A stretch of DNA of 64,000 nt from Liolophura sinensis (taxonomy: Eukaryota > Mollusca > Polyplacophora > Chitonida > Chitonidae). The stretch covers positions 73,562,028 to 73,626,027 of the forward strand of contig NC_088295.1 of assembly GCF_032854445.1 (NCBI RefSeq), in the 5' to 3' direction. The translations under genes and the position numbers were made by a program. Shown piece after piece: positions 5,446-49,633 of the stretch (positions within the stretch are counted from its first letter, which is position 1; each line of letters opens with the position of its first letter). Under the pieces are notes generated by a model. The model made no database searches and had not been told where the DNA came from. It saw only the letters and a list, made by a program, of their open reading frames with translations.

Positions 5446-6456
5446 TCAGTAGCAAGTGTGGCCACCCTGGGCATCAATGCATGCAAGCACACGCCTCCGT
5501 ATTGACGTCGTCCGTCGCCGGATGACGTCAGCTGGGGTAACGTTCCATAGGTTTAACAGAGCTTGCTCAAGTTCCTGTTGGTTAGTTGGAGGAGGCACCA
5601 ACTGTCTCAAACGGCGGTCAAGGTGATCCCAGAGATGGTCAATGGGGTTCATGTCTGGTCAGTTGGCTGGCCAGGGCAACACGATGACGTTTGCGGTCTC
5701 GAGGTAGTCTGTAAAAATGCGGGCAGTGTGAGGTCTTGCGTTGTCGTGTTGCAAGATCGATCCTTTTGGCTGTCATTAAAGGAAAGGAACGACGACAGGT
5801 CTCAGTACCTCATCAAGGTATCGCTGGCCAGTCAGATTACCTCGCACAATAACCAGCTGCGTCTTCATTTGGTCACAAATCCCTCCCCAAACCATGACGC
5901 CTCCGCCTCCAAACGGATAAACCTCTCTTACGCAGTTTGGCGCGAGACGCTCGCCTCTTCGTCGGAAAACTCGAACTCTGCCATCGTTCCTGAATAGACA
6001 GAACCTGCTCTCGTCTGTAAACAGCACTCTCGCCCAGTCACGTCGCTGCCACCGACGTACAATACGTGCCCATCGCAATCTGCGTTGACGGTGTAAAAGG
6101 GTCAAGGCCATCCTACGGAAGGGGCGGTAAGGTCGTAAACCAGCTGAACGAAGACGAAGCAGTGTTGTCCTGGGTCTGATGACATGGCCTAGTGCCGTCC
6201 CCGCTGTTGACGTCGCCGTGACGAATCGGTTTCGGAGGTGGATCTGCCGGATGTAGCGATCTTCAGCCGCAGTTGTTACCCTCGGTCTTCCCGATCTTGG
6301 TCTGTCTTGGGTCTGGCCTGTCTGCTGATAGCGTATCAACAACCTCCTGATGGTGGTTTGGCTGCAGTTGAACGTTCTTGCAATGTGACGTTGCGAGACT
6401 CCCATGGTGGACATACCGATGGCCTGGCCTCGTTGCGCTTGCGTAAGTCTTGGCAT
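5446..6456 (-). pseudogene. Tc1-like transposase pseudogene
   Basis: A DDE transposase that would excise and insert the surrounding element at TA sites. The frame most likely starts at the methionine at 6456 (MPRLTQAQRGQAIGM), a typical Tc1 start, although an upstream in-frame ATG exists at 6543. In order it shows helix-turn-helix DNA-binding domains, an RPRSGRPR AT-hook-like motif, the first catalytic Asp in FTDESRF, the second in LQHDNARPHTAR, and the third position in NPIDHLWD. Spacing gives DD34D where Tc1 elements usually have DD34E. TAA at 5776-5778, TGA at 5773-5775 and TGA at 5659-5661 interrupt an otherwise single continuous frame of 336 positions. No frameshift is needed to read it, so decay is by point mutation. 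The final stop is TGA at 5446-5448. Confidence 0.93.
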
Positions 6457-6704
6457 ACTGTTGGTGTTTTTTCGGTCACTGAATGTCTGCCCTTTCGAGC
6501 AAGAGTATTTATGCAACATTACCGCACGTGCATCACGAGCCATGCCTCAAAAGGACGTTTTGCATGTTATCGCAATTTCACAATTCCAATTGCTGCGTTC
6601 GTGACGATGCGCTCTGGTAGAGGAAACGATGCAGTCATACACCATGTCCTGCTTAGAATCAAATCCGGAACCGCGCTTTTATTTTTTTTATGACAAAAAA
6701 TACC

Positions 6705-7127: not shown

Positions 7128-8297
7128 TTAATTTATGTTTCTGTGTACTTGGTCTTCCTTGGACACTTCAGAACTTAACTTGGACATTTGGGTATCAAGA
7201 CCAGATTCTCCTCGAGATGAAATACTTGCGTTTTTCGCTTTAACACGTATACGCTTCAGGCATTTGTCGCACCCAAAAACTTCCAGACACTTACGACGAA
7301 ATTTTCGGCCACTCAAAAAGTAAAAGAAAAAGTTAAAAGCATGATTGAACTCATTTAAAGTATGGACAACTTCGCGCACCAAGTAGTAAATTGCTAGCTC
7401 TCTCGCTTCTGTAGGCCGAGCTTGGTGTCGGTCCACAAGATAGAAAATGGTTATAGGCAGTTGAAGAATGACAAAGGCTACAGATACCGTTACCAGCATA
7501 ACAGACAAATTAATGTGCTGTTGTGACACTGGGGGTCTAGATGAATTGGCAGTGTCACCCCTCAAAAGGTGAGTATTCATGGCCTCTCGACGCACTTTGG
7601 CTGATTTGTTTAGTTTCACAATGATGCCGCTATTCAGAAAAATAAGGATCAAGCAAGGGAGTAGAGACAACAAGAGCAAATCAACCCAAGTTATTATCCT
7701 GGAGACATCCTGAAGGGACGGTTCTTCTCCGCAGTAGATATAACCGTCGTCTATTACCTCGATATAGAGCCACAGAGCGAACGAGGCGTGAATCAGTAAA
7801 ACGAAAGCCGTTATTAAAAGGGCTAGGACAGATTTCTTCAGGCTGAAAACTCGGGATATTTTGAAAGGAAAGAAGACGGCCACGAAACGTTCCAGGGTCA
7901 TGAGAACCACCGTCCAGTTTGCCACAGGTGTCGTAAAGTTCATGAGAAAGTGTAGTGCTTTACATCCACCGTTACCGAGAGGAACTTTATAGCGGGTCAG
8001 CTGAGTGTAGAGAAAATTGAATATTATGCATAAGGTGTCTGTGACGCCCAGGTATGTCACAAACAAAACCAGAGATGTAAATGTTTTCATTTTTCTCACG
8101 GTGATAATCACAGCTCCGTTGCCCAAAACAGCCACCAGTAAGGCTATCCATGGCGTTGTTCTGTTGAGCCATGCGGCGGCCCAGTATTCCGCGTAGCTTT
8201 CCAGTTCTTGAGCACTAGAGTTGTCCGCACCATCAGCTGACAAACTGCTGTTGTAACCCATTAAAGATGTATTAGGGTATGTTTGTTCTGATGCCAT
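7128..8297 (-). CDS. Rhodopsin-family (class A) peptide-type GPCR, single exon
   Basis: A 389-aa seven-transmembrane receptor in one uninterrupted exon. The ATG at 8297 sits in a strong Kozak context (GACCATGG). The N-terminal ~48 residues carry four N-glycosylation sequons (N9, N16, N26, N45). TM1 has the GN motif (N60), TM2 the conserved Asp (D87), TM3 starts at C112 and ends in ERF (136-138) in place of DRY, C189 in loop 2 can pair with C112, TM5 has P214, TM6 has LQLP (P281), and TM7 has NHAFNFFFY (318-326) in place of NPxxY. Helix 8 (SGRKFRRKCLEVFGC) and a Ser-rich tail with possible kinase sites follow. This pattern is typical of the large lineage-specific neuropeptide-receptor-like families of lophotrochozoans (FMRFamide-receptor-like and orphan groups). 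The ligand cannot be inferred. It acts at the plasma membrane through heterotrimeric G proteins. Confidence 0.93.
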   Translation of the reverse strand: MASEQTYPNTSLMGYNSSLSADGADNSSAQELESYAEYWAAAWLNRTTPWIALLVAVLGNGAVIITVRKMKTFTSLVLFVTYLGVTDTLCIIFNFLYTQLTRYKVPLGNGGCKALHFLMNFTTPVANWTVVLMTLERFVAVFFPFKISRVFSLKKSVLALLITAFVLLIHASFALWLYIEVIDDGYIYCGEEPSLQDVSRIITWVDLLLLSLLPCLILIFLNSGIIVKLNKSAKVRREAMNTHLLRGDTANSSRPPVSQQHINLSVMLVTVSVAFVILQLPITIFYLVDRHQARPTEARELAIYYLVREVVHTLNEFNHAFNFFFYFLSGRKFRRKCLEVFGCDKCLKRIRVKAKNASISSRGESGLDTQMSKLSSEVSKEDQVHRNIN

Positions 8298-8538
8298 GGT
8301 CAGTTGCCAGCACGATCAATATGTAATCGCCTACGAAGGGTTAAAACAGAATTCGTTAAGTCCTTGGTCACACTTATCCGAACTACTTTTCATTCGTCGA
8401 AGCTGAGTAAGTGTTGTTTCTGTCTACAAAGGCGGAACCTGCAAGAGATAGGACACTGTGATTGACTATCACTGATTATGATGTTGTCAGATATTTACAG
8501 GAGAATAGCCAGTCATTGGCCGTACTGAAGTAACACTT
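8298..8538 (-). promoter_or_regulatory. GPCR 5' leader or proximal flank
   Basis: Unique in this window, lying between the GPCR start codon and the duplicated flank. It probably contains the 5' untranslated region. No upstream ATG in frame with the receptor is evident, and no splice signal is confirmed. Confidence 0.4.
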
Positions 8539-10240: not shown

Positions 10241-10580
10241 ACATGAGTATATTTTTGGGGACATATGCATGTAAGTGGTCCAATAATGTTTATTACTGTT
10301 TACTGGTAGCTGTTTATTTATAATTTAAGTTTTGAAAATTGTTGTGAAAAAGCTCAAAAATTGAAACTGAAGTCAACGTTTATTCAACAGTGTCATGCAA
10401 CACCTAATTAAAAGCGACTATTTACGTGTTTAAAGAAACAGTTAGTCCTGAAAAGTAAATCTAGATCCTATTTCTATGTCATCTGACGTCACGCTGACTT
10501 ACAAGGGTTGGGCTAAAAGATGAACTTTTGTACGGCGTGAATTTTGAAGCTTTATGTAAGCAAATAAACAGAGATTTGCT

Positions 10581-32282: not shown

Positions 32283-32530
32283 TTAGGTTTTGTTTTGAAT
32301 CTTTTTTTCCTTTATTCGTCTATTCTGGAACCAGATTTTAATTTGTCTCTCTGTCAGATGGATCCTTTGTGCCAGTTCCCATCTCCTGGTTTTGGATATG
32401 TAGGCGGATCCCAGGTACTCTCTCTCTAGCTCGGCTATTTGGTATTTACTGTAGGGTCGGCGTCTCTTGCGCAGCGTAATGGCCGATGGCGCTATCGTGG
32501 TAGGTGGAAGATGGGTAGATTGAGGAATGC
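32283..32530 (-). CDS. Posterior Hox gene, exon 2 (homeodomain exon)
   Basis: Encodes the DNA-binding part of a nuclear transcription factor that patterns posterior body regions. The exon starts directly after a TTTCAG acceptor (32536-32531) in phase 1, completing a Gly codon begun in exon 1. In the joined 291-aa protein the homeodomain spans residues 229-288, with the key positions Y8, L16, W48, F49, Q50, N51 and R53 present ([15 protein letters not shown], then [15 protein letters not shown]). Only three residues follow before TAA. RPYSKYQ...LERE and the KEKK end place it with Abd-B/Hox9-13 proteins. Among lophotrochozoan paralogs it should be Post1 or Post2. It lacks the YQTMVLENEF signature that I associate with Post2, so Post1 is my leaning. 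Unusual points are Ile at position 54 and Trp at 32. Open sequence continues upstream of the acceptor but is intronic. Confidence 0.93.
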
Positions 32531-34447
32531 CTGAAACAATGCAAAAGAATAAAACCTTACAGAGATGAAAACCAGAGAACCGACAGTGTAATAATAATTG
32601 ATAAATGGTCAAAAGTAACCGGTGAAATTCAGCTTCTTGTCAATTTACTTGAGTTAGGGTTTTATTCTAGCTGATCCTATAATTGCTCATAATCCTGTAA
32701 TAGTAGCAAATTACACAGCACCTAGGATCATGGTTTAAGCAAAATTAGGTAAAAAAAATAATTGCAAGTTGTTAGACGTCACTAGTTTAGAATTACTTAG
32801 AATGCTGTCTTCTCGTCATATTTAACATAGAATAACATTGATGAAATAAACAGACCAAATGATTAATTCAAAATACTGATAACCACTGCAAAATAAAATG
32901 TCATACAAAGTCTATACTAAGGGTCTGTGTCAACACTGAGTCCAATTCCAAAAGTCTATTTCAATACGTCTCTGAGAAAAGAAACCTTGCAATGATAATT
33001 GTAGAAATTACAAAAGGTTCACTAATGTATCTAATTAATTTCAAATTATAAAGTCTTTGTTTATCCGCAATAGTTCTGTTATGTAGGGCCTTTCTAACAC
33101 GAAGTCGAGCACTTAAGTATATCAACAGCAGTAAACCTATACATAATCCTAAAAATACACACACAGAGGTAGTTGTCACGGAATGAACAAAATAAATTTT
33201 TCAAATTGATAAATTTAAAAACTAAGTTTATATGACAGTATATTCTAATCACACTATATGCTTTAGAATAAAATGAGGTGATACTACAGTCGTTGGACAA
33301 ATAGAAATCGTTTCATTCTACTTTTAAACAGTGCTTGAGTAAAAAAAGTATAAATTACTGTCATTAATAGAGTAAAACACCTCAACCTCTGTTTACAAAT
33401 TCTGGTGGAAATTGAACGAGCGCCTTTAGGCAGCAGCCTGAGTTGGTGGTTTATCTTCAAGACACAATATTGTGACCTTAACTATAGTTTCTATAACCGA
33501 TCTGAATAGTAATAAAATATACTGCACTGGTCAACGAATTCTAAATGAACAAACACGGGTCATTGTAAAAAGTTGTTTCTTAAGGGATACAATAAAAGTG
33601 ATACAAACATTTGGTTTATGTGTTAGCATAAATGCATGTTTATGGCTTTTCTGATTAATTGGATTAATGGATTGGAATGGACTGTTGTATTGGATTTGAT
33701 AATATTTCCAATACTATGTGTTCCAAATCGCAAAAAAACAATAATAATAAAACCTTTTCAAAACCACCTGAACCTAGAACCTGGATTTTGCTAAATATTT
33801 CACTTGATCACTTGTAACTACAGCAAAGTTTGTGAGATTATTGCCTAATCTTGATCATTTAATGTCATCTAAATTGAAGGTCATTGGATTATTGTTTCAA
33901 CATCATGATGTTTTAATTCGGATTGGAAGCAATATCATCAGGAAATATTAAACAATTAGAGTACCGTTTAAATATCGGAGCATGTCATTCGTGATTCAGG
34001 ACGAATCGCTATGTTCATTTCTGTTTAAGTTGATCTTTACCAGGCGTGACAATAACTCGGATGTCGAAAAGATTTGCCAGCCTGCGATGGCAATCTGTTT
34101 ATACAGGACAATAAAGTTCTTTACAATGACTCGTAAATGAACGAATAAAGTTCATTACCGACATTTAATGACGGCCCGTTGACATGGCATGTATGCAAAG
34201 GAAACGATCCAGAAACATTGAGATGTGTGCCCAGGCACTTCCCTGGGAAATATGTCCGCTACTTCACATCTTTATTACCAATCTCTGTTCCGGATAAATA
34301 AAACTTCCAAGGCACTGTGTGGTATTTCCAAGGTAGAGTTACGTAAACATGTTCAAAGAAGTTTGGAACTGGAAATTTAACCATTTTGGTACACTCCTTG
34401 GTAAAACGGTAAACCACGTCAACACAGCGAGTAAGCATACACTATAT

Positions 34448-34745
34448 AGGCATAATTTACAGTTTAATGTATAGGTATAATGTTCACTTTAATGTATAAG
34501 TATTATGTGCAGTTTAATGTATGGGTATAATGTGCAGTTTTAACACAAGCAACAACTAAGCGCATGAAGTTTCTAAAGTTATACAGTTTAATGTATAGGT
34601 ATAATGTGTAGTTTAATGTATAGGTATAATGTGCAGTTTAATGTATAGGTATAATGTGCAGTTTAATGTATAGGCATAATGTGCAGTTTAATGTATAGGC
34701 ATAATGTGCAGTTTAATGTATAGGTATAATTTTATAGGTATAGGT
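34448..34745 (+). repeat. 25-bp tandem repeat in two blocks
   Basis: Unit GTGCAGTTTAATGTATAGG + TATAAT. About four copies at 34448-34535 and seven at 34582-34740. Each block is followed by the same stretch, CAGTTTTAACACAAGCAAC and AAGCGCATGAAGTTTCTAAA, so the array plus its flank was itself duplicated. Confidence 0.95.
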
Positions 34746-35389
34746 ACAGTTTTAACACAAGCAACAAGTAAGCGCATGAAGTTTCTAAAATTGTGAAATT
34801 TCTGTCTGAGATTTAAAGCTAAAAATACAAATAGCTCTAACTATGTTTAGTTTCAAAATGAAATAATCTATAGAGGATATCTTCTGAGTAAAGGTACAGT
34901 TTGACGTAGTCTAACGCTCTTGTTCGGTTTTTAGGTTTTCATAGCGCAAACATGCCGCAAACATGGTTAATTCCGTATTAGCTGAACACATAATGATTCT
35001 TATGAGGTTTGTTATGATTTATATAATTTATAAATGACTGATTGATTGATAATAGAATTGGTAGAATGGAATAAAAAAAAAACCATGAAAAAGGATATAA
35101 AATACATTGATTTATGTTGCGAGTGCCCTCAATGGATACATGATCCATACCAACAGGTGATTTGTGTACTATAGTATATCAGGAAGTCTTTAATCGATCA
35201 ACATTTTGGACAGGACTTTATCGTAAATAAAGAAGTGCCATCAAAGGCAGTAAATATTGTGATTGCAAGCAGCAGACAGTAAATTTTTTTCGAGTTCTCA
35301 AATATTTCTCTTTGATCAGCAAAAATGTAAACCTCAATATCCGACCATACAACGTTGCCATCATCTGTTGATCGTCAGGTTATCTGCAA

Positions 35390-36015
35390 ACAGGATGTCC
35401 TGAGATATAGTACCCAGGGAGAACAAAGCTGGTCGCCGCCATATTGACCTACCTCAAAGAGATCTTTATACCTGCACTCTGACTAGCTTAGATCGTAAAC
35501 GCCCTGGCACAGACAAACGCGCCCAATGTTGTCTTTTAAACTGTTTCTCACAAGGGAGTTGGAGGAATCTACACTCAGTTGTAAAACTCTCTTAAACAGC
35601 TGAAGAAAAGTGCCACATGAAAGGCGTCACAGCGTGTTTATTGGCCTTCCATGATTTGCCTGCGACCATTAGAGTTGTCTTCAAAGACAGAGGGCGTCCA
35701 GACGGTAGGCGGCGCTTTTACCGTTTTCAAATTTTTCTAGCCTATCGTAATATCTATAGTGATGATGTACCAGACCTCTGGATGCGTAGCCTGCCGATTT
35801 CCTTAAGATACTACCTTGAATTATTGTTATTTCCAGCAAATAAAATGCCCATGACATACACTGATATATGCCAGCAAACGGATTTAGCAGCTGTTGTCGC
35901 TTTTGCCAAAACACATTCGAATCAACAAAGACGAGTTCAGGGTCTTTTATATGTACTTTTGAGAATTTGCCTATTTATGGGTTTATCACTGAACAAGCGT
36001 TACATAACGTTCTGA
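35390..36015 (+). other. Relatively GC-rich, repeat-free stretch with a 132-codon frame
   Basis: Lies in the Hox intron. An ATG at 35617 opens a 132-codon frame with no recognised domain. Antisense frames overlap it. GC content is higher than in the surroundings (GGGCGTCCAGACGGTAGGC), and Abd-B-like TTTATTGG occurs at 35638. It could be an embedded exon, an antisense transcript or a regulatory element. I cannot choose between these. Confidence 0.25.
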
Positions 36016-38855
36016 TTCAGTTAAAGCTTTCAACTTCTTGACACTTGCATGCAGAGTTTAAGGCAGTGTACAACGATTTTTGCTAAGTGGAGCATACGGG
36101 CTAGTTTTCGACACAGCATTCTCCCATGCATAGACATGTGTGCAAAGAAGGATTTTTCATTAAAACGTATATTGCAAGATAAATTACTGGGTTAACGCAA
36201 AACAAACTTAGCGTGTTTCCCAATTTGCGTCATGTTGAAGTGTTTTAGTTGATACACAGATAGAACACAGGAAAGGGTTCCAAGTCGGTAAAAAGCCTTG
36301 AGTTACAGGAAAAAAATGAATGTACAGTTTGATTAGCAAAATTAGAATCACAAACCCATATAATTACTTAACCATTAAGTTTGGATTAGTGGTGAAGAAA
36401 TTGTCAGCAACTTTGACAAAGTCCAGTTTTCGGGATTTACACAGAAGACAAATAACTGGAGAAAAATGTAAACGAATGTCTACGGATAATTTTATAATTT
36501 ACCCCATTATAATTACCTGTAGTCATGTATTATGTCCGAAATGTCGTGTGTAGAATGTGATGATTAGGTTTGGCACCTTCTAGAATGAGCAAACTTATAC
36601 AGATCAGCTAACAACGGGTTAAATCAATTAAACTGTTGACAAATGAAGGGAAGCCGAGTCACTTAACGTTGACTGACGCCAGTTTGTTATAAAACAAAAA
36701 TGTTCAATATATACTGTTCGTCAGAGGTATGATTTTATCTTTTATTATATAACATTTCATTCTCACCCTCGTCAGGGTCATAATTATGATGGGAAATCTT
36801 TTGAAGTTCACAGCAAAATCCCCGAAGTTCTTACAGGTTGTGTGGATGCATGACAGACCTCTCGTAGAGACAGTTTTACACATCATGAACAAAAAAGGAA
36901 GTCAGAAGATTTTTCTTTCTTCAGTTGTCATATTTGATATATGGCGTGGGGTGATAGGGTCATTATGACAACAAAGTAACAGGCTTAATGGGACACCAAA
37001 GCGATTCATGCGATGTTTAACGTCTAAAGGTGTACATATGAGGATCACGCTGTATAGAAACTGTATTCTATTTCTTTTAGCCATCAGTCATACTCGTACT
37101 AAAACTTGCTTTTGTTCAGTGACATGTAACAACCAAAGGTCTACACACTGATATGTTGGACGTCTATATTATTACAAAGAAAATGCAGTTAGAATACTTT
37201 TTTCTAATTCATGATGTTAAACTCCCTAAACTAAGTTTCGACACCATTTATTGAACCCCTTTAGTGCATAAATGTTTACATCAATCATGATCGAATGTTG
37301 ATCAAAAAGGCGGGCGTGGAAACAGAGTTATAAGTTTATTATTAATCATAAAAAACAAGTGACAAACAATTGGCTCACACCCGGTTATTGTTCTACATGA
37401 CCGAATGCAATTCGATGACTGCATGAATGAACACCAGCTGATACTAAAAGTACACATTCTTTCCAAGATTTGTAATTTATTGTGAAACGAGAAATATTTA
37501 TGGATCTGACTGATCCAATATTTACCTAGTTTGTGTTTCTGGTTTGTGACAAAATGTACTCCGTACCACATTAATTCGTTCCTTCCTCCATCCACAATTT
37601 TAATGAGATTTTATTCACGTTACTGAACCTGTGTCGGCCCACAAATCGTTAACAAGACAGTTAAAGAGTGAGAGAGGGAGGGTGGGTGGTGGTTGTCAGT
37701 AAACAAAAGCTGTTAATTGGTTAATCGATATTTACTTGCCTCGTATAGACAAGGCAACAACTCATAACTGATTGAAAATACTTGTACAAACACGGACAAG
37801 AAATATTTATTTACTGGCCATGCGCTGTAAATGTATAAGTCACACCCTGCTTCAAATTTTATGTATGGCTCTCTGGTTCACAAGTATCGACCAATATCAA
37901 GTCTTGCTAACGACCCTTGGGAACTGGATTTTGTTATTCATAGACACATAATTCCTCTCTGTGGTTTGATGCCAGTTTTGCGTGGAGCGGACGAAATATG
38001 TTAACAAGAGGCTAATTGATTCTCGTTCTAGTGGATACGATTCCGACGGCTGACTGAAGATCGATCCCAAAGATATTATGTCCAATTGAGACGCCCCTCG
38101 GTATTTTTGCTAAATTGCAATGTGAAATTGTCATTAACAGATTGCAATTAAGACAAACACTTGCTGAATTGTGGAGCTATTTCAGTGCGTATTCACAATG
38201 AAACAATTAAGAAATAAATAGTTAAATTTAGGAGTTATCAAAGCCATGCATTCTTATATATCATTTGTGTGTATCCTCGGTGAGTCAGTCATTTCATCGT
38301 TCAGTGCACTTCAAAATAATATGACATTATTGCTTACTGAATGAATACATAATAATTTAGAGAAGTGGAAATTACGGCATCGTAAAAAAAGAAAAGTAGA
38401 CATTGATTTGACATTTAATTGGAGAATATATAAAGTTTCCATTTTAACTCTGAGCATGATGGATAATTTGTATATTAAGTACTACAAAATACTCATTTCT
38501 TACATTATTATTTGGACTACAGGATTTTATTTATTGGAAGTATTATCCAGGAAAAATCGTGTATTTCCGCAATACTCCCAGAAGTATTTACATGAAGTAG
38601 ATGCATGTTTCTGACATGGATCACCAAATTTTTCAGCCGTTATACCTCACAAATCTAACAGGAGAACAGTAAGTCACGACAAGCATTGTTTTTGGTGATT
38701 TATCAAAAAGTATTTTCGCAATATAAATAATAAAAAATATTTATATATATTCATAATCTCATAAAAAAATTATGAGAGTATTTACTGAACTACACGTTTG
38801 ATGGAACATAAACAGATGAGAATAATGCATTGCAAATATATAGGCTGCACAATAA

Positions 38856-39041
38856 ACATATAGGTTACATTTATTTATTTATTTATTTGATTGGTGTTTT
38901 ACGCACTAATAATATTTCACTTATACGACGGTGGCCAGCATTATGGTGGGATGAAACCGGGCAGAGCTCGGGGGAAACCCACGACCATCCGCAGGTTGAT
39001 GGAACGTGCGGCTAGAGAGGAAGCCAGACATATAGGTTACA
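38856..39041 (-). mobile_element. Family-1 SINE with 14-bp target duplication
   Basis: ACATATAGGTTACA is exact at 38856-38869 and 39028-39041. Between them are the inverted tail (ATTTGATTGGTGTTTTACGC), the core (GGGCAGAGCTCGGGGG) and part of the next block (GCTAGAGAGGAAGCCAG), stopping short of the tRNA head. It is the only well-preserved SINE in the Hox intron. Confidence 0.96.
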
Positions 39042-40569
39042 CGAAAAGGCTGCACAATATACATATTATCAGATAAAAATGATTGTAACTGTGATTTGAT
39101 TTGGCTTGGACCTTCCCACTTATGGCCGGAGACTGTTATATATCGTACACATGTATGTGAATATTGAGTAAGACAGAGCTATTCGGTGTAATTAATGAAC
39201 CCAACAGTTGATAATATGATATTTAAATCATTTACAACAATATGTTGACACATAAGCAATCCGAAACAAGTCTCTCTTTGTTAATACTTTTATTTCTTCG
39301 TTGTAATATAGTTAAATGAATTCAACGACAGTGATTCAAATCTAGATTTTACAAGCTTGTAGAGTATCAAGGAAAACATACGAATGATTACAATACCATG
39401 AAATAAAATTAAATGTAAAATGCGAAATTTCATCTCTGACCTGATCGAATATCTTTATTATTTTTAGTAGCAGACTATGCTTGGCTATTTTAAAACATCG
39501 AGAATTTCTGAAGAATTCCAACAGAGTTACTAAAAGTCACGAGTTAAGAATCATTTCTTTGATGTAGGCAATGCGCGACATGCTCCTCGAGGTGTCCGTC
39601 TTTTGATGAAGGTAATAAACGCTGTTAAACAACAGGGATCGGGCGGTTTAATAGCGTCGTGAGGAGTACCACAAACTAACCACACTGGGAGTAACCTCCA
39701 GAAATGTCAAAATCTGTCCGATGAAAGTCTCCGAATGTGTGAGGTCCACAACTCCTGCTAACAAACAGCTCATTTCCCTGAGCAGAAATGTTACATACAA
39801 ATGTTCCGGAGTTTTTGTAACATGAAACATTCTCAAACATATACCAGTTCACATTGGTATCATGCTGAGTCACACTTAGTGTTTCGGTTCAAGTGAGTGC
39901 TCGGAAAAAGAGACCAATAGTGATAGATGTTATCTTGGTGCATGTAAAAACTTGTTTATTATTAAAATGAAATTAAAGCTGTTTCCAATATGATATAGCT
40001 AGGAATATCAATTATCTTCATATAGACTGTTAATCCCTGAGTTGATTAAAACAAAAAGAATATTTCACAACTTGAAATGACCTGCTGCATCCGCCTTTAA
40101 TTATCGCGCACGAATGATTATGTTTGATAGTTAAAGTATTAAAAATACCAACAGCATTAATAATAGAATCTACCAGTCGTTTTCCCTGGTATAATATGGT
40201 TATAGAAGAATTACTAGATTTACAGTCACAAATTCCAGTAGTTGCCGATGTGTCCTTTATATATCACGCCTGATTATTTTCAAAACATATTAAAAAGACT
40301 ATTCATGAATTGTTCTCTCATGGATGGTGAGTACAAGGGAGAAGAAATATTTTGAAATTCTTGATTAGCAAAGTTGGCAAAAAATAAATCATTCTTATAA
40401 TCACGTGCTTGGATGATTGTACTAAAATGTTAAAATTAAGTTTTCATATGCTACAGAGCTGTCGTCGTATTGCAAACTTCGTCGAGTAAACTTCATTTAG
40501 TATCACCGACTTCGATCAGTATATATATAGTATTTCCCTCGTTCAACGTTAGTCGCTTCTTTTAACTTT

Positions 40570-41353
40570 GGCTCAGTATTGACTTTTCGCTCAATATTGG
40601 CTATTTCCCTCAGTACTGGACACTTCGCTCAGTGTTGGCCATTTCGCCCTGTGTTGAACAACTGGGCTAACATTAGGCATCCCCGTGTTACGAAAAAATT
40701 CGCATGATATTCTAAGGCCAATCACTTCGTTTAGTATTGAGAACCTATTTTAAATATATAAATCAGAAAATGTATTCAGCATTTGGTCAATATCTTTTCA
40801 ATAATGACCATTTCGTTCAGTATTGGCCACCTCGTTCAGTATGGCCACTTCATGTAATTTTAGTCATATCCTTCAGTATTGGCCAAATCGTTCAGTGTTG
40901 AAAACTTTATTCAGCATTGGCCATTTCGTTCAGTGTTGGCCACTTTTCTGTATTGGCCAAATCGTTCAGTGTTGACCACTTTATTCTGTATTGGCCATTT
41001 CGTTAGGTGTTGACGACTTTATTCTGTATTGGCTATTTCGTTCAGTGTTAACAACTTTATTCTGTATTGGCCAAATCGTTCAGTGTTGACCACTTTATTC
41101 TGTATTGGACATTTCATTCAGTGTTGGCCACTTTATTCTGTATTGGCCTTTTCGTTCAGTGTTGACGACCTTATTCTGTATTGGCTATTTCGTTCAGTGT
41201 TGGCCACTTTATTCTGTATTGGCCAAATCGTTCAGTGTTGACCACTTTATTCTGTATTGGCCAAATCGTTCAGTGTTGACCACTTTATTCTGTATTGGCC
41301 ATTTCGTTCAGTGTTGACCATTTTATTCTGTATTGGCCGTTTCGTTCAGTGTT
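40570..41353 (+). repeat. 38-bp satellite built from 19-bp half units
   Basis: The homogeneous part (about 40930-41345) repeats CGTTCAGTGTTGACCACTT + TATTCTGTATTGGCCATTT, roughly eleven 38-bp units. The two 19-base halves resemble each other (TTCAGTGTTGGCCA / TTCTGTATTGGCCA). Older, diverged single half-units lead in from 40570 (CTCAGTATTGACTTTTCGCT). The 38-bp unit is not a multiple of three, and the translated frames over it are artefacts. Confidence 0.96.
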
Positions 41354-41599
41354 AGACGCTATGGCTGTGAAGCCTCGTCTGCATGATTATTGGATAAATC
41401 ATTCCAGTGATAACTACACGAAATTGTAGAATTTCAGTCATAGCATGAGTGAACGAGTGTCCTTGACGCCTCAAGTGACCAGAACGGATTTCCCTCTCGT
41501 AGACTGTACGACAAGATGAATAGTTTCAATTTTGACATTGTAAATATCCATACTTGAACAGCAATATACCGAAGGGTGTTGCATATTGCGTGTACATGT

Positions 41600-41940
41600 C
41601 TCACCTTGTAGCATTTGTTGGACCGTGTGTGGTATGTGACGATTTCAATCAACGTCACAAGTTATTTCTGTCAAGGTTATTTCACCAAACGCCTTCACTC
41701 CAAGTTCCACTCAATCGCCTAGAACATATCTTGCGTCTTTTACATCACTGAAAATTGTTGACTGTTTCTCTTTGTATGATTCCCTCCTATCTTCGTACTT
41801 TATATACTGTCTTAGTTCTTTGGTGATTTGTGTTAAACGTCGTTTGGGGAAGTGGCATGCGATTATTGATCCGGAACGTCCATATTGTTTGACGCCTGAT
41901 ATGCGAATGTCTGTTTCGACACATAGATTATAAATTCAAA
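41600..41940 (+). repeat. Unclassified dispersed repeat, copy D
   Basis: Shares with copy B the start (CAATCAACGTCACAAG, GTCAAGGTTATTTCACC) and with copies A, C and E the end (TTTATATACTGTCTTAG, TTCTTTGGTGATTTGTG, GCGAATGTCTGTTTCGAC). It lacks the middle ~250 bases of copy C. Confidence 0.8.
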
Positions 41941-42485
41941 GCTAGTCTCATGTTCAAGCTTAGTGAAGGGTCTGACCGACAGCTCAGTCACATTTCACAA
42001 TTAATGTCAACCACATTTGACAATTTACAAATTTAAAAATTTGCATACAATAGACAAGTGTTATAGTAATTAAAATTAACAGCTTTTCAAGTTCAAGCTG
42101 TATGGAGGAGACAAGAACATTTGTATGTAAAATTATAAATGAGTTCTAATGAAGCACTACAAGTATTTTTTGTCCATCTATAATTCTTTGCTAATGTTGC
42201 TATGCAGCAAGAACATTGTTTAGAAAAGGTAAAACTGTTACCAGATTTATGTAGAAGTTCTGTACACATATAGGTAGTAGAAAAAGTGCATTCCTGCACA
42301 CTTTGCCGTATTTCAATTGAGTTTATTTTATAGGTTTAATAATTTGTAATATTTCAGCCATATCCTGGCGATGCAAACATCGTGGCAAGTCATTCCACAT
42401 TGATTTTCCATTCACCAACGCTTAAATTGCCATTCTGATATTTTGTCGTAGATTTCCAAACAAAAAGAAGTATGGATTTTTATCA

Positions 42486-42627
42486 TTATTACCATAAGTT
42501 TGACCATTATTACCATAAGTTTGTCCATTATTACCATAAGTTTATCCATTATTATCATAAGTTTGACCATTATTACCATAAGTTTGTCCATTATTACCAT
42601 AAGTTTGACCATTATTACCATAAGTTT
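42486..42627 (+). repeat. 21-bp tandem repeat, about seven copies
   Basis: Unit ATTATTACCATAAGTTTGTCC with a GACC/GTCC/ATCC alternation at the end. As 21 is a multiple of three, the reverse strand stays open and would read (M-V-I-M-V/D-K-L)n, with no other sign of coding. Confidence 0.95.
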
Positions 42628-45600
42628 TAAGTGATGGTGAAGAGTTCTAATTCAAATATTCCTGTTGGCAGAGAATGAAACATAACCCAGTAATATGTAA
42701 AATGGTGAAGTACTTTTCAATGAAGTGGAAAATAAAAGAGCATTTTGCCACGCGTTGTAGTTTTTAATATGAATATACTTATCACACAATATAAAAAACT
42801 CTACAACTGTAAGTTTCTGTATTTTTTAACCATTCCTCACGATGCAAGAAGATGTGCATGACAGCAGAAAGTATGAGCTTTCAATCAAACTCTCGAGCTC
42901 TGTATAGTGACGGTGGTGAAGTTATTGGCAAATGGGCGATTCTGCTATACTTACAGAGTTCCTTTTACGACTAGGGTAAAATGGCGGGGTAGAAAAAAAA
43001 TCCAATTATTTTCTACAAATTGCTTATCGAATTATTTTATGTGATCTTCAAATATGAACCATCGTTGGATCTCATGAAAGGAAAAACTACTGTGTGAGAC
43101 ACGACAGCCAGCCGTAAAGCGTTGACATATGAGGCAAGTTGGTTTCCCTTTCAGTACAGAACGGGCAAAGCTGTGGAATGAGACAGTCAACCATTTGGAC
43201 TAGTGTTGACATTTGAGGAAACTAAATGAGGCTTACCTGGTTGTTAGGATGCCTGGAGGCCATCAGAAATAGATTGTAAATCCGACAGATTGTTAAACAC
43301 TTTCGGTTAATGTAAACGTTCAGTATCATATGATATAGCTAAATGTCCAGTCCCGTTTGCAGCAAATCGTTTTTCTAGGTTTGAAAATCGAGAAAATAGG
43401 AAAAATTCTAACGATAATTCTTGCTGACTATTTGAGCCATTATAAACCTTCATACAAAATGTGAAAGAATAATGTAACCTGGAGACGTCAATATCGCCAC
43501 GGTTAGTTTGTACAAAATATGCGTAATTACAGTGTTAAGGAAGTACATGTATGTATGCCTTTACATTGGTTACATCGCAGGGAATGCATGAAATAAAAAT
43601 CAAAAATAAAAGAAAAACAAAACAGAAGAGTGAGTGAGTATATGGATAAATAACACATTTACACATCCATATTTTTAACGGATGGCCGACTTTCAGTTAA
43701 ATTTCAGAAAATTTCAGTTACGTGAAAAATACGAGAAGGCTTAACCACGTTATTGCACCCAATTTCACCTTGTTACATATAACATGTTAACACACAGCCT
43801 GTGTGCAATTGGCACACATCTTGATTATGCCGCATACATACAAATGTATGGATCAAAGGATCCGATGTTATCTTCAATAAGGTGGAATTATGCCATCAAA
43901 AATCAGGTTGCCATCTTCGAAATTCACCACTCGGACCTTCAGCTATATCTTTGATGTCTGTTAAACTTCTACATCTCACCGTCAAAATCACCTGTACAAT
44001 ATAATGAGGGATCGCTCCAGATACCAGTCATTATAATGTCTTTTTCAAAGACTTAACAAAGCCAAGCTTTTCCCAAGTCATAATTATAGATTTCACAATG
44101 CAAATATAATTCTTAAACTTGACATTTAAATGAGGTTTTTAGCATACATTACATTTATATTTAATTAGATTTTCTCCTTCAACATATTAATTTGGTTGAC
44201 AGCAATATGCCTTGTATGGTTGATTCTCTATAAGTACTTCATATTATCATCATGCGGAAACTGAGATTTAAATTTGTAACAGTAAGTCAATAATTAAATA
44301 TTTTGACATGGACATGAACATATACAAGACATCACAATTCAATATACCTCACTGGTATAAAACTTTTCAAAATGATGTGTTGTCATCACATTTAATAAGC
44401 AATCACATGAAAACAATGTAAAGGAGCTCGGGGATCGTAGTCCACAAGCAGAATCCTGGCTTATGCAGATAAATTTTTATCTGTACTGGATCATGTTGTA
44501 TTGTTTTACTAATTTCTCCTTTGCTGTCCCATGTTTCCTGTGCATTTGAACTAAACTATGAGTCGGTGAAAATATTTTCGACGATTGTGGGAAACATTAG
44601 ATAAATAAATAAATAAATAAATAAGTCTACTTTAATATTGTTATTGTATTTTTCAGAAGTATATTAGTGCACACTATTTTACCATAGTTACGCAGTAAAA
44701 CGGTTATAATTATTTAAATTGACAAATGTGAACCGGGTTGTTTAAACGTATATAAATATTTAAATCTTGGTTAACGAATTTTGATACAGTTTTGATTAAC
44801 CAACGTACCGTTAAAGTCTAACTAAAGCGATATTATATACAATGCCAGATTAAAAAGTATTTAAAAAGCATTAAAATCGTTGGAAATAAAAACTAAGTCA
44901 ACTTCTCATCTTACTTCTGTGACTGATGTTGAAAAGCGCAGAAGTAATGTTATACTTAATTACCTGATTTACAGTCTGATTCACGTCTTAGAGTGGATGT
45001 TGTCTAGCACGAGTGGCGGGAAAATTGTTTTGGCGTGCGGGAATTAGTGGCAGAAATAAGGATACTGATCAAAAGTGTAGGGGCATAATCAACATCTAAA
45101 TCAGAAGACGTGGTAAAAGCTGCGCAACGTTAAACCAATTTCAAAATTAAGGGGTAAAATCAATGTTTATGTCATTGCTTAGACCGTAGCAACTGACATC
45201 CCCTATACAGCCTCATGGATTAGCAGAATTAACAAATGAAATTTCTAGACGTCACAGGTTTACAAATACGCAAATGCTGAGCTGTCACCACATTTTACAG
45301 ATAACAACATAATGCAAATAATAATGCAAAGGAACCAAGTTTTGGGTAAGCTTGGTTGATCAGCAGAATCCTAGCTTGTGTGTAGTGAACATGATTCTTA
45401 AACGTAAATTTCAAGATTCATATCCCAAAATGTAAAACACAATTTTCAAACGAATCTAAAAACGAAATAATTTTCAAACGAAATAATTAAGCAACTATAG
45501 TAAACAAATCTGGTGGCAGCTAAGACAGACGCAATCATCATTTGGCTGGTATGCATGGAAAACTGGATATTTTGGGGTATGGCATCCTAATATACCTTCA

Positions 45601-47561
45601 GACTCGTGATGCGAGAATATATATGTATTTTCCACGTCCAATACATCAGCATCTCAGTCGCACTTTGACTGTAGCTGTTCATAAAAGCACCATGGTAATT
45701 AATGTAACAAACACAGATTCTTACACATCCCCTAGCCCCCAGTTTATGCAGAATAAGATACAGCTATATATGAAAACTGTGGAACAAATGGCCATATATG
45801 TTATATGTTAAACTCCCTGTCCTTATTTGCCAACAAAACAGCTACACTCACTGTAGAATTTAAGAAACTTAACGAGAGCGTGTCTTGTTGAATATCCATG
45901 TCACTGTATCCTTTTTTGAATCCATAACTTGTGGTGTAAATTGAAGTGATCGCATTGTACACATGCAATGCAACTATGTAATTCATGTATGTGCACTTCA
46001 TATACAAGACATTTTGATGTACCGGTATTACAACAGAAATGATGGTTAATTACAATCGCAAGATTAAAATTATTCATTTTGTTATAAATGTGGGGTTAGA
46101 GAAAATCTGGTCGCCATGAATTTATGATTGTAATATTTGTTATGTCATTCTGTAATTTACAGTTTAACCGTACCCATATTTCCGTTGGTATTATGTCATT
46201 TTGATAGTCTTGTCTATAATATTTAATACCGTGCAGTTCCTGTAAATCCATCTCGCAAAACTTATTTTTTTATCTTGTGAGGAAAACTGATGCAGAAAGT
46301 CATGTAATTTGATAGGTTTGTTATCACAAGAGTTATCTCCCGTGAGTCTGTCTGGCCGGCCAAGTGTCGCCATAACACTGTCGGCTAACGTCTACACGAG
46401 GCTTATTTACAAACAACGCCGTTGAGATCTGATTTATAGCCCTTTCTGCTGCAAGACAATAAAACTGTCAGGACTGAAGCTCGGAAAGGCAAGTCTCTTA
46501 CATAAAATGTTCCACAAAACTTCACTACGACGGCTGATATTTCTTTATAATAAGAGATATATGTGTTCAACAAAGAAGAGATCCGGGACTCCCATTTCTT
46601 TTTTGATGCAGCCAGTAGACGCGACCGAAAAGAAAACGACAGCCGGTAACAAACTTTACAGAGGATGGAATCTCTACATTATTTTATGGTGTCAGGGCTA
46701 CATTTTGTGCAAATGTGCCTAGAAATCTACATCTATTATTGCGATGGTGGTGCTGGCGATTTGAATGGGTGGTCCATGAGTTACGTTAACTGCACACGCC
46801 TTTCGCTAAGAATTAATCCTGCACTGAGTTGTACATGTATAGGCCTCCTTGAAGTTATTCGTTAATATCGATATATTGTTCATTGCTCGCATGTGCGAGG
46901 TAAGGGCAAATATATACTGATTGGTATGATTGTACGTCCATAATGTTATATTATGTTAATCTTGATCCGAATTGCACTGCAGATATTCCGTGTTTTGAAT
47001 GCATAATAGTTCGTTTGCTCGTTTATTTGAACGAATATTAGTCAGTTGTATAATTAGCGTTTTACAATTCGTGGGAAGTCTTACTTTTATTATCCGTGCT
47101 ACAAGTCTTTATATTCTATGCCATTATTTTACTTTTTGAGCAAATATGTATTTTTAAAATTATATTCGCGTGGACAATACAGTGAAAAAACTAGATGCAT
47201 TTTGAAAGATTGGAGGTATTTATCCATCTCGGTGTGACAGTGTAGACCTCTATGTGACAAGCACATCTACAGCATAAACCAGCATGGTTGTTGAAGAGTG
47301 GATTAAATACAGTGACAGCTCTGTGAAGCTATCGATTACCTTCACGGTTTAAGACTTCACACATCATGCTTATGCGCGTATATTTATGCCACACATTTCG
47401 GTTAATTAAGCATTTAAACACGAATTCTGAAATGACGGATGCAGCATGTACATTTATATATATGCCTACTACAAGAACAAAACCTGACCGTCGTCATATA
47501 CGTGAACAATTATCCAGTACTGTGTTAAATACTAATCAAATAAATTAAGCAAATACTAATT

Positions 47562-47815
47562 ACCTGCCAACCCAAGGTATTCTTTATCTTATGGGGTAAA
47601 AACTGCTCCATGGAAAAATTTAAACTGTGTAAATTTTCATACCATGCATAAAGCATAAATCGCATTTTGACAAACTGTACTGAACCTGCCAATACAAGGT
47701 ATTTGTTGTCTTAAGAGGTAAGAATTGCCACAAAGAAAAAATTTAAATGGCGTAAGATTTCATAACATTCATACAGAATAAATCGTATTTTAACGAACTG
47801 TACTGAAGTTATGAA
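47562..47815 (+). repeat. Diverged tandem duplication, ~127-bp unit
   Basis: ACCTGCCAACCCAAGGTATT...ACAAACTGTACTGA (47562-47690) is repeated as ACCTGCCAATACAAGGTATT...ACGAACTGTACTGA (47691-47815) with many substitutions. Confidence 0.85.
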
Positions 47816-48470
47816 TTCAAACGTGATTTTGTTTTTGAAGAATAAAGTTATATATAAATATAATTATACTGATGAATACGTGAAGGTTACCTGGCATGGC
47901 AGAAAAGCCAACCGTAAAACTGCGAGCAGTTATGGATAAATAATAATAACACGTCATGTCTTCATTTTAGATAATTTCCTGCTATATGCTATGAGAAAAA
48001 CAGAGCCACCCAGGGGAATTAGGAACTGAGACCGCCTGCACTGCACTGAAGGTTAAGACACAGGTAGCACGCTTGACATGAGCGGTATAAACGATTTGGA
48101 GAAAAATTCACTACAAACATTTCAGCTTCTAAAAATATAAATGTGTACAGATTGCACACATAAAAATGTCAGAATAAGACTGATTTTACAATCCCTTTTT
48201 TCTTTTCACTGAGTGTATATTAAATATATATTATGTCATACCAATATATGTGTGATTTTTAAAACATTTAATATAAACTCACATGAAATCCTAGTTTTCC
48301 ATTTCGACAGAACTAATATTTTACTACTACCAACATAAGCATATTTTTGTGATTAGACAAAAAAATTAGAAATAAGTATAATGGTCAAACCAGGTGAAAA
48401 GAAATAAACACCGTGTCAGGGGATGACGAGACATCTTAACTACATAATTGTTGAGCGCTTATCATTTTTA

Positions 48471-48510
48471 TATTTATTTATATTTGATTGATATTTTACG
48501 CCGTATGCTC
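48471..48510 (-). mobile_element. Family-1 SINE tail fragment
   Basis: TATTTATATTTGATTGATAT followed by TTTACGCCGTATGCTC is an inverted SINE 3' tail. Nothing of the core remains. Confidence 0.7.
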
Positions 48511-49005
48511 ATCTATATAACATCGGATATTTACGCAATGGAACTCAAGTAGGCAGTTTTCAGTTAACTCATAGTGGTTTAACACGGCTATTGCTATATT
48601 TTGTGTTCCTTCTAAGTACGTCTTACAAATATTAAATTGTAACTGGACAAATAATAAACACGTGTATTTATTTTAATATGGAAAGGGATGTGCATTCAAC
48701 GCATAAAGCTCGAGATGTGGTATGATCATGTTTTATTACATTAGCATCTTTTAGTGTTGTCAGCCTTGTTCTATTTACAAATTGTTATCAATAAATTTTT
48801 AAGAAAGAATTGATCAGGAGGAAATGCACACCACTTCTGGAATTAGTATGGAAGTATTACACCAAATACCTGCAAAAAAATAACAACAATCACCAGACTC
48901 GATTTGAATGACAAAATTTCAATTCCCTTATATAGTGCCAATAATAGCTGTCTTCTATATGCGTTTTATTTTGTGTGAATGCTATGAGGCTAACTGGGAC
49001 TTTAC

Positions 49006-49633
49006 CTGTTGCCTGAAGAAATGGATAATGATGGATTGGCACGCTGTGACCGACGGGCACGTGACTGGCCAAGTTACCGGAAACTTCAGCCATTTTCCAC
49101 AGGGAATTGTTCGTCCCGTAAGTGTGGTGGTGGTGGTGGTGTGATGGGTGGGGGGTGTACCTGTCCCCACGGCCCAACATGAACCCACCCTCCTGATCGT
49201 GAACAAAATGCCTACTGGACGGTATGGCGACATCATAGACGGCTATATGTGAGAAGTATGGATGAATCGCCCTGCGGTCCGTTACAGGGTCGAACGATTC
49301 CAAGGAAACCGATGCTCCAGTCGACGATGCAGCGCTTCCGAAGTAAGGTGAACAGGAGTTGAGCGAAGCGGCCGTGGCCGTCAGAGGGGATGTGTCAAAC
49401 CTGGTAGAGTCGGACACTGAGGTATCCGTCGGCATTCTCCGTGAAGAGTCAACTGCGCTGTTATATAATCCTAGCCCTCGTGCGTTTCTGCTACACGACA
49501 GCAGGCTAGCAGTCACTGCAGCGTCATCACTACTGCAGCCATAATCACGAAACTTCATGTCAATGGCCATTGCGGTTTGGCCAACCTGTGGGAGATGCCA
49601 GCTGGGTGCCGCTAGTGAAGCCGACGCCATCAT
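49006..49633 (-). CDS. Posterior Hox gene, exon 1 (N-terminal region)
   Basis: Encodes residues 1-209 plus the first base of codon 210. The start is the first of two adjacent ATGs (49633, MMASASLAAPSW). The open frame upstream has only a TTG, so no longer form is proposed. The exon ends ACAG|GTAAAGT, a strong donor, in phase 1, which exactly fits exon 2. The region is rich in Ser, Ala and His and likely disordered, with a six-His run at residues 165-170 and a short NSLWKM at 176-181. The YPWM-type hexapeptide is absent, as in other posterior Hox proteins, and the Trp just before the homeodomain of many Hox9/10 proteins is also missing. The assignment to the homeobox exon rests on strand, phase, composition and the lack of other exons, and has no transcript support. 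Confidence 0.85.

Follow-up and report, generated by a model that had tools for sequence, protein, structure and literature searches.

A likely Post1 gene, reversed beside Post2, at the posterior end of the Hox cluster of the chiton Liolophura sinensis

Loss of the posterior Hox gene Post1 has been published for chitons, and a two-exon homeobox gene in the genome of the chiton Liolophura sinensis raises the question of whether Post1 is retained in this lineage. The gene lies on the minus strand of a 64,000-nucleotide (nt) stretch of DNA, referred to below as the window (C1:73562028-73626027, C1 being contig NC_088295.1 of assembly GCF_032854445.1). The assembly holds 609,464,459 bases in 632 contigs, with 96,433,062 bases in C1. 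The genome was published under the name Liolophura japonica (PMC11068029), which a published correction has renamed L. sinensis (PMC12441733). Because position, orientation and homeodomain signature agree, the gene is very probably Post1, intact and retained at the posterior end of the Hox cluster, with orthology read from position and signature. The kind of gene is known, and the new point is the presence of such a gene in a chiton, in reversed place beside Post2. An earlier note on this DNA, which described a two-exon posterior Hox gene with a long intron, had missed the likely Post1 identity and the reversed place, and these matter most. The features of the gene, in window positions, are as follows.

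49633-49006, minus strand: exon 1 of the Post1 candidate, 628 nt (209 codons and one base), with its ATG at 49633
32531..49005, minus strand: intron of 16,475 bp, GT..AG, phase 1
32530-32283, minus strand: exon 2, 248 nt, with the stop codon ending at 32283
32301..32471 (C1:73594328-73594498), minus strand: homeodomain (Pfam PF00046 match)

Posterior class and place in the Hox cluster

The homeodomain belongs to the posterior (Abd-B/Hox9-13) class, the placement on which the earlier note had staked its reading. A tree of 21 homeodomains was built from the Post1 candidate, 16 other chiton homeodomains and four posterior chains from the PDB (Hox-B13 not being one of them); loci L013, L015, L016, L017 and L019, assigned to other classes by eye, were left out. 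The six posterior rows, including the candidate, formed one clade against the 15 others with support of 100/98. Among sequences of solved structures the best match was Drosophila Abd-B (83 bits, 38/60 residues), followed by Hox-A9, Hox-C9, Hox-A13 and Hox-B13 chains. All of the twelve best matches were posterior and stood ahead of the first central match (Ubx), and one further Hox-B13 chain fell below some central-class chains, both among the best 60 of 65 matches.

Signature residues, numbered by us in the standard 60-residue scheme, pointed to Post1. The residues K3, R18 and V21 are given for the posterior class and Y20 as the spiralian post1 signature (PMC12852818). The candidate had K3, R18, Y20 and L21, whereas Post2 of the same genome had K3, N18, F20 and L21. 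The Post2-type residues N18 and F20 did not occur in the candidate, and a separate Post2 homeodomain was located at C1:73732058. Tyrosine at position 20 distinguished the candidate from the rest of the cluster, since Post2 and the remaining nine Hox homeodomains all have F20. Abd-B has neither Y20 nor R18.

A genome scan with PF00046, in which 150 of 312 candidates were scored, found the Post1 candidate as the minus-strand member of a group on C1, with ten Hox homeodomains on the plus strand from 73.73 to 74.34 Mb. The order along C1 beyond the candidate was Post2, Lox2, Lox4, Antp, Lox5, Hox5, Hox4, Hox3, Hox2 and Hox1. HIAKNM followed the homeodomain in Hox5 and LPNTK in Hox4, both of them published motifs of these genes (PMC5103448), and the names of the remaining cluster genes are our reading of the homeodomain letters. 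The cluster of 11 genes, in which all ten other molluscan Hox genes were present, spanned 743,336 bp, and the candidate was the outermost, beyond Post2 and alone on the opposite strand. The candidate and Post2 were arranged head to head, their start codons lying 111,624 bp apart. Their homeodomains were 137,560 bp apart, the largest of ten such distances but not out of line with the 120,363 bp from Post2 to Lox2. The DNA separating the window from the Post2 homeodomain held nine open reading frames (ORFs) of at least 140 codons, and none was recognised except Post2 exon 1, no family-library scan being made and shorter exons not being sought. Part of the genome of this species is reported to be duplicated (PMC12005716); only one Hox cluster was seen within the scored candidates. 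When the genome was searched with the candidate homeodomain (103/103 candidates scored, 40 matches), the next best match was Post2, 52% identical, and a second copy resembling Post1 was not found.

Post1 of Lottia gigantea and of Magallana hongkongensis is likewise a posterior Hox gene whose direction of transcription is opposite to that of the other cluster genes (PMC7566022). The Liolophura gene is likened to these conchiferan genes by position and not by sequence, and it comes from Polyplacophora, where Post1 has been reported missing. Capitella CapI-Post1 is also a posterior Hox gene of a lophotrochozoan whose genome has Post2 as well, but it lies outside the Hox cluster on another scaffold, whereas the Liolophura gene lies in the cluster; its tabulated value of 177, taken as amino acids, compares with 291 amino acids in Liolophura (PMC2603591).

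Identity as Post1 and the published record for chitons

The closest competitor to Post1 identity, though an improbable one, is a chiton-specific Post2 duplicate that underwent inversion and fast divergence, the true Post1 having been lost as published. It fits with the gene adjoining Post2, with the published absence of Post1 in chitons and with the tree, in which pairing of the candidate with Post2 was not rejected (approximately unbiased test, p 0.353). The two chiton genes share the posterior class, K3, P7, W32 and a phase-1 acceptor before the homeodomain. However, they have only 31/60 homeodomain residues in common, below what either shares with fly Abd-B (38/60 for the candidate and 40/60 for Post2), and on these counts the candidate would not be a recent copy of Post2. 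They also differ in strand, in exon 1 and in the intron, which is 8.2 kb in Post2. The Post1-type Y20 and R18, together with an inverted position matching that of conchiferan Post1 (PMC7566022), argue further against a Post2 duplicate.

Several observations weigh against Post1 identity and were set against the agreement of position and signature. The signature residues are not exclusive: Hox-A13 also has Y20 and R18, and Y20 was found in chiton Rough, R18 in Gsx and En, and K3 in Cdx. V21 was absent from the candidate, which has L21 as do Abd-B, Hox-A9, Hox-C9 and Post2. The tree, besides leaving the Post2 pairing standing, contained no other lophotrochozoan Post1 sequence and paired the candidate with Hox-A13 (89/83), a weak grouping on a very long branch. 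Exon 1 showed no similarity to Post2 exon 1, which also counts against a Post2 duplicate. The candidate and Hox-A13 are alike in E-R-E-Y at positions 17-20 and K-E-K-K at 55-58 but have only 31/60 residues in common; their pairing is in line with a post1/hox11-13 group named in PMC12852818. No paper text was found that pairs post1 with the homeodomain letters iwfqnrr.

The published record for chitons also stands against Post1 in Liolophura. Post1 has been reported absent from Acanthopleura granulata, in its genome paper, and from Acanthochitona, and the loss was inferred to have occurred in the ancestor either of Chitonida or of chitons as a whole. It was not found in the transcriptome of Acanthochitona crinita, whose authors stated that a genome may be needed to settle its presence (PMC4949717, PMC4524011), and a passage in PMC12046283 excepts post1 in polyplacophorans. 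Other statements reduce the novelty of a chiton Post1 instead. Contrary to its genome paper, A. granulata has been said to carry 11 Hox genes in an intact cluster (PMC7878502), and the Hox set of A. crinita has been described as complete or almost complete, with Post-1 excepted from the expression data (PMC5103448). The A. granulata assembly consists of 10.2% N (PMC11068029), and Post1 could therefore have been missed there. No earlier report of a chiton Post1 was found in the titles, beginnings of abstracts and passages covered in the open-access literature. The survey of Iijima et al. 2006, which reportedly covers Hox genes over the molluscan classes, may contain a chiton Post1 fragment.

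According to the NCBI taxonomy, Liolophura sinensis and Acanthopleura granulata both belong to the subfamily Acanthopleurinae in the order Chitonida. Post1 in Liolophura would contradict the published timing of the loss, and the Post1 inversion would thereby be placed in both halves of Mollusca. We consider it probable that Post1 was never lost from chitons as a whole, and that the molluscan ancestor had an 11-gene cluster whose posterior end carried Post1, inverted and head to head with Post2, an arrangement kept by this chitonid. The reported loss would then reflect gaps, low expression or much younger independent losses.

The gene would be expressed with its two exons spliced into one transcript encoding a 291-amino-acid protein. 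This protein, whose homeodomain has Trp48, Phe49, Asn51 and Arg53, is predicted from its family to be a posterior Hox transcription factor that binds DNA in a sequence-specific way. By analogy with Post1 elsewhere, it may take part in posterior, shell-field or mantle patterning. Post1 expression has been described in the gastropod shell field and mantle margin, in scaphopod ganglia, mantle margin and foot, and in annelid chaetal sacs (PMC6378612, PMC7878502, PMC2603591). There is little reason to expect that Post1 is present as a non-functional gene, either a recent pseudogene or an unexpressed relic missed for that reason by transcriptome surveys. Such a relic would agree with the failure to find Post1 in the transcriptomes of A. 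crinita and A. granulata, and with Ile at homeodomain position 54, a site occupied by Met in each of the other ten Hox homeodomains of the cluster. On the other hand, the frame is open over both exons between GT/AG splice sites, the homeodomain is complete and free of stops, and the helix-3 residues W48, F49, N51 and R53 are kept. A missed signal is also not unusual, since a Dreissena Post1 probe was silent and its authors blamed low expression (PMC7878502).

Gene structure and intron length

Both exons were found where the earlier note had claimed them, with the homeodomain exon behind an acceptor and an upstream exon on the same strand ending in a GTAAAGT donor. The sequence at the end of exon 1 (49006) was CAACAG/GTAAAGT and that before exon 2 (first base 32530) was ATTGTTTCAG/GC. 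The phase-1 junctions and the 291-residue join were reproduced: 628 and 248 nt gave 291 codons and a stop, with a Gly codon at the seam split G/GC. Exon 2 consisted of two bases and 18 linker codons, a complete 60-residue homeodomain, codons for N K T and the stop. The PF00046 match scored 73.9 bits (cut-off 22.9) over profile positions 1-57 of 57 without stops. The exon 1 protein was rich in Ser and His and had no YPWM hexapeptide.

Exon 1 lies inside a stop-to-stop ORF of 262 codons, of which 247 run from the ATG, which follows an in-frame stop. When 100 windows of 64 kb and equal composition were simulated with a Markov model, the longest ORF reached at least 247 codons in only one (median 154, maximum 274). 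The GC content was 0.546 in exon 1 compared with 0.347 in the intron. Candidate first exons upstream of exon 2 were defined as paths from a first ATG to a phase-1 GT[AG][AGT] donor with at least 30 codons. The window, which is free of N, held 41 such paths on the same strand, and the five longest all used the exon 1 ATG; the next compatible first exon had 66 codons, exon 1 being three times longer. ORF length against the simulated windows, the GC contrast and the rank as longest compatible first exon make it unlikely that exon 1 is a chance ORF. A codon-usage score trained on Hox exons was tried as further support for exon 1 and set aside as weak. The reading frame of exon 1 scored 39.7 bits and the two other frames 20.6 and 23.3, but one antisense frame reached 37.3; a G-protein-coupled receptor (GPCR) gene of the window was outside the ten best ORFs by this score.

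It is improbable that another 5' exon is the true partner of a real homeodomain exon and that the ORF near 49 kb comes from a different gene or is spurious. Exon 1 is indeed without homology evidence: no Pfam family matched at E 0.01, and no second copy was found in the genome (two candidates in the search, the other match having E 0.4). Yet it shares the strand of exon 2 and a compatible phase, begins with an ATG after an in-frame stop, differs from the intron in GC content and is three times longer than the next compatible first exon in the window. The acceptor before the homeodomain leaves phase 1 in 10/10 other Hox genes, as in the candidate, the acceptors having been picked by us among the listed AGs by pyrimidine tract. 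First exons with phase-1 donors were found for 9/10 of these genes. This agreement does not count as independent evidence, because the search admitted phase-1 donors alone, except in Post2 and Antp, for which every GT in the final stretch of the ORF was taken into account; in several ORFs more than one donor in phase 1 was present. Strand, phase, ORF, composition and cluster layout thus support the two-exon model, and the pairing of the exons proposed in the earlier note is upheld at the level of sequence.

The emphasis that the same note put on intron length, most lophotrochozoan Hox introns being expected to be shorter, found no support. The 16,475-bp intron was the longest of ten measured, the nine others ranging from about 1.0 to 14.8 kb: 8,243 bp in Post2, 12,154 in Lox2, 10,993 in Lox4, about 1,000 in Antp (0.96 to 1.0 kb, the donor being ambiguous), 5,125 in Lox5, 14,773 in Hox5, 4,355 in Hox4, 3,428 in Hox3 and 7,546 in Hox2. 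Exon 1 of Hox1 was not found within the 20 kb searched. With 14.8 kb in Hox5 of this cluster and 16.6 kb in Capitella Hox3 (PMC2603591), the 16.5-kb intron is ordinary, and its length was rejected as an anomaly. That an assembly artefact or contamination put the gene beside the chiton cluster is very improbable, as nothing was found in its favour, no N occurs from the window through Post2 on a 96.4-Mb scaffold, and about 13% of the intron has matches elsewhere in the window or in further stretches retrieved from this genome.

Other homeobox loci and neighbouring features

The usual order of the ParaHox genes is Gsx, Xlox, Cdx. Three minus-strand loci of L. sinensis, at C8:24799394 (L014), C8:24871984 (L050) and C8:24914264 (L020), were read as Xlox, Gsx and Cdx, respectively. 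Gsx and Xlox were reportedly not found in the transcriptome of A. crinita.

Two tandem homeobox arrays were observed. The first, at C5:1098451-1163070 (L052), contained at least 11 homeodomain matches, many of them 2,276 bp or a multiple apart, and one translated unit was TALE-like (VKKWFANKRNR), which recalls the TALE expansions of spiralians. The second, at C9:8214551-8242802 (L051), contained ten matches of near-equal score, mostly 2.7 to 2.84 kb apart and ending at profile position 46; one translated unit was divergent.

No Rfam family matched the window at gathering thresholds. The GPCR gene mentioned above, a single ORF of the rhodopsin family at 7128-8315 on the minus strand, lies about 24 kb downstream of the Post1 candidate, and its best solved-structure match was the KiSS-1 receptor (E 1.3e-11). 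A transposase-like ORF of 256 codons (HTH_Tnp_Tc3_2, Tc1-like) was found at 5776-6546 on the minus strand. Four ORFs near 10500, 25050, 27060 and 52700 had in common a GVLR...TY-like string and overlapped DNA matched elsewhere in the genome; they probably represent a dispersed repeat.

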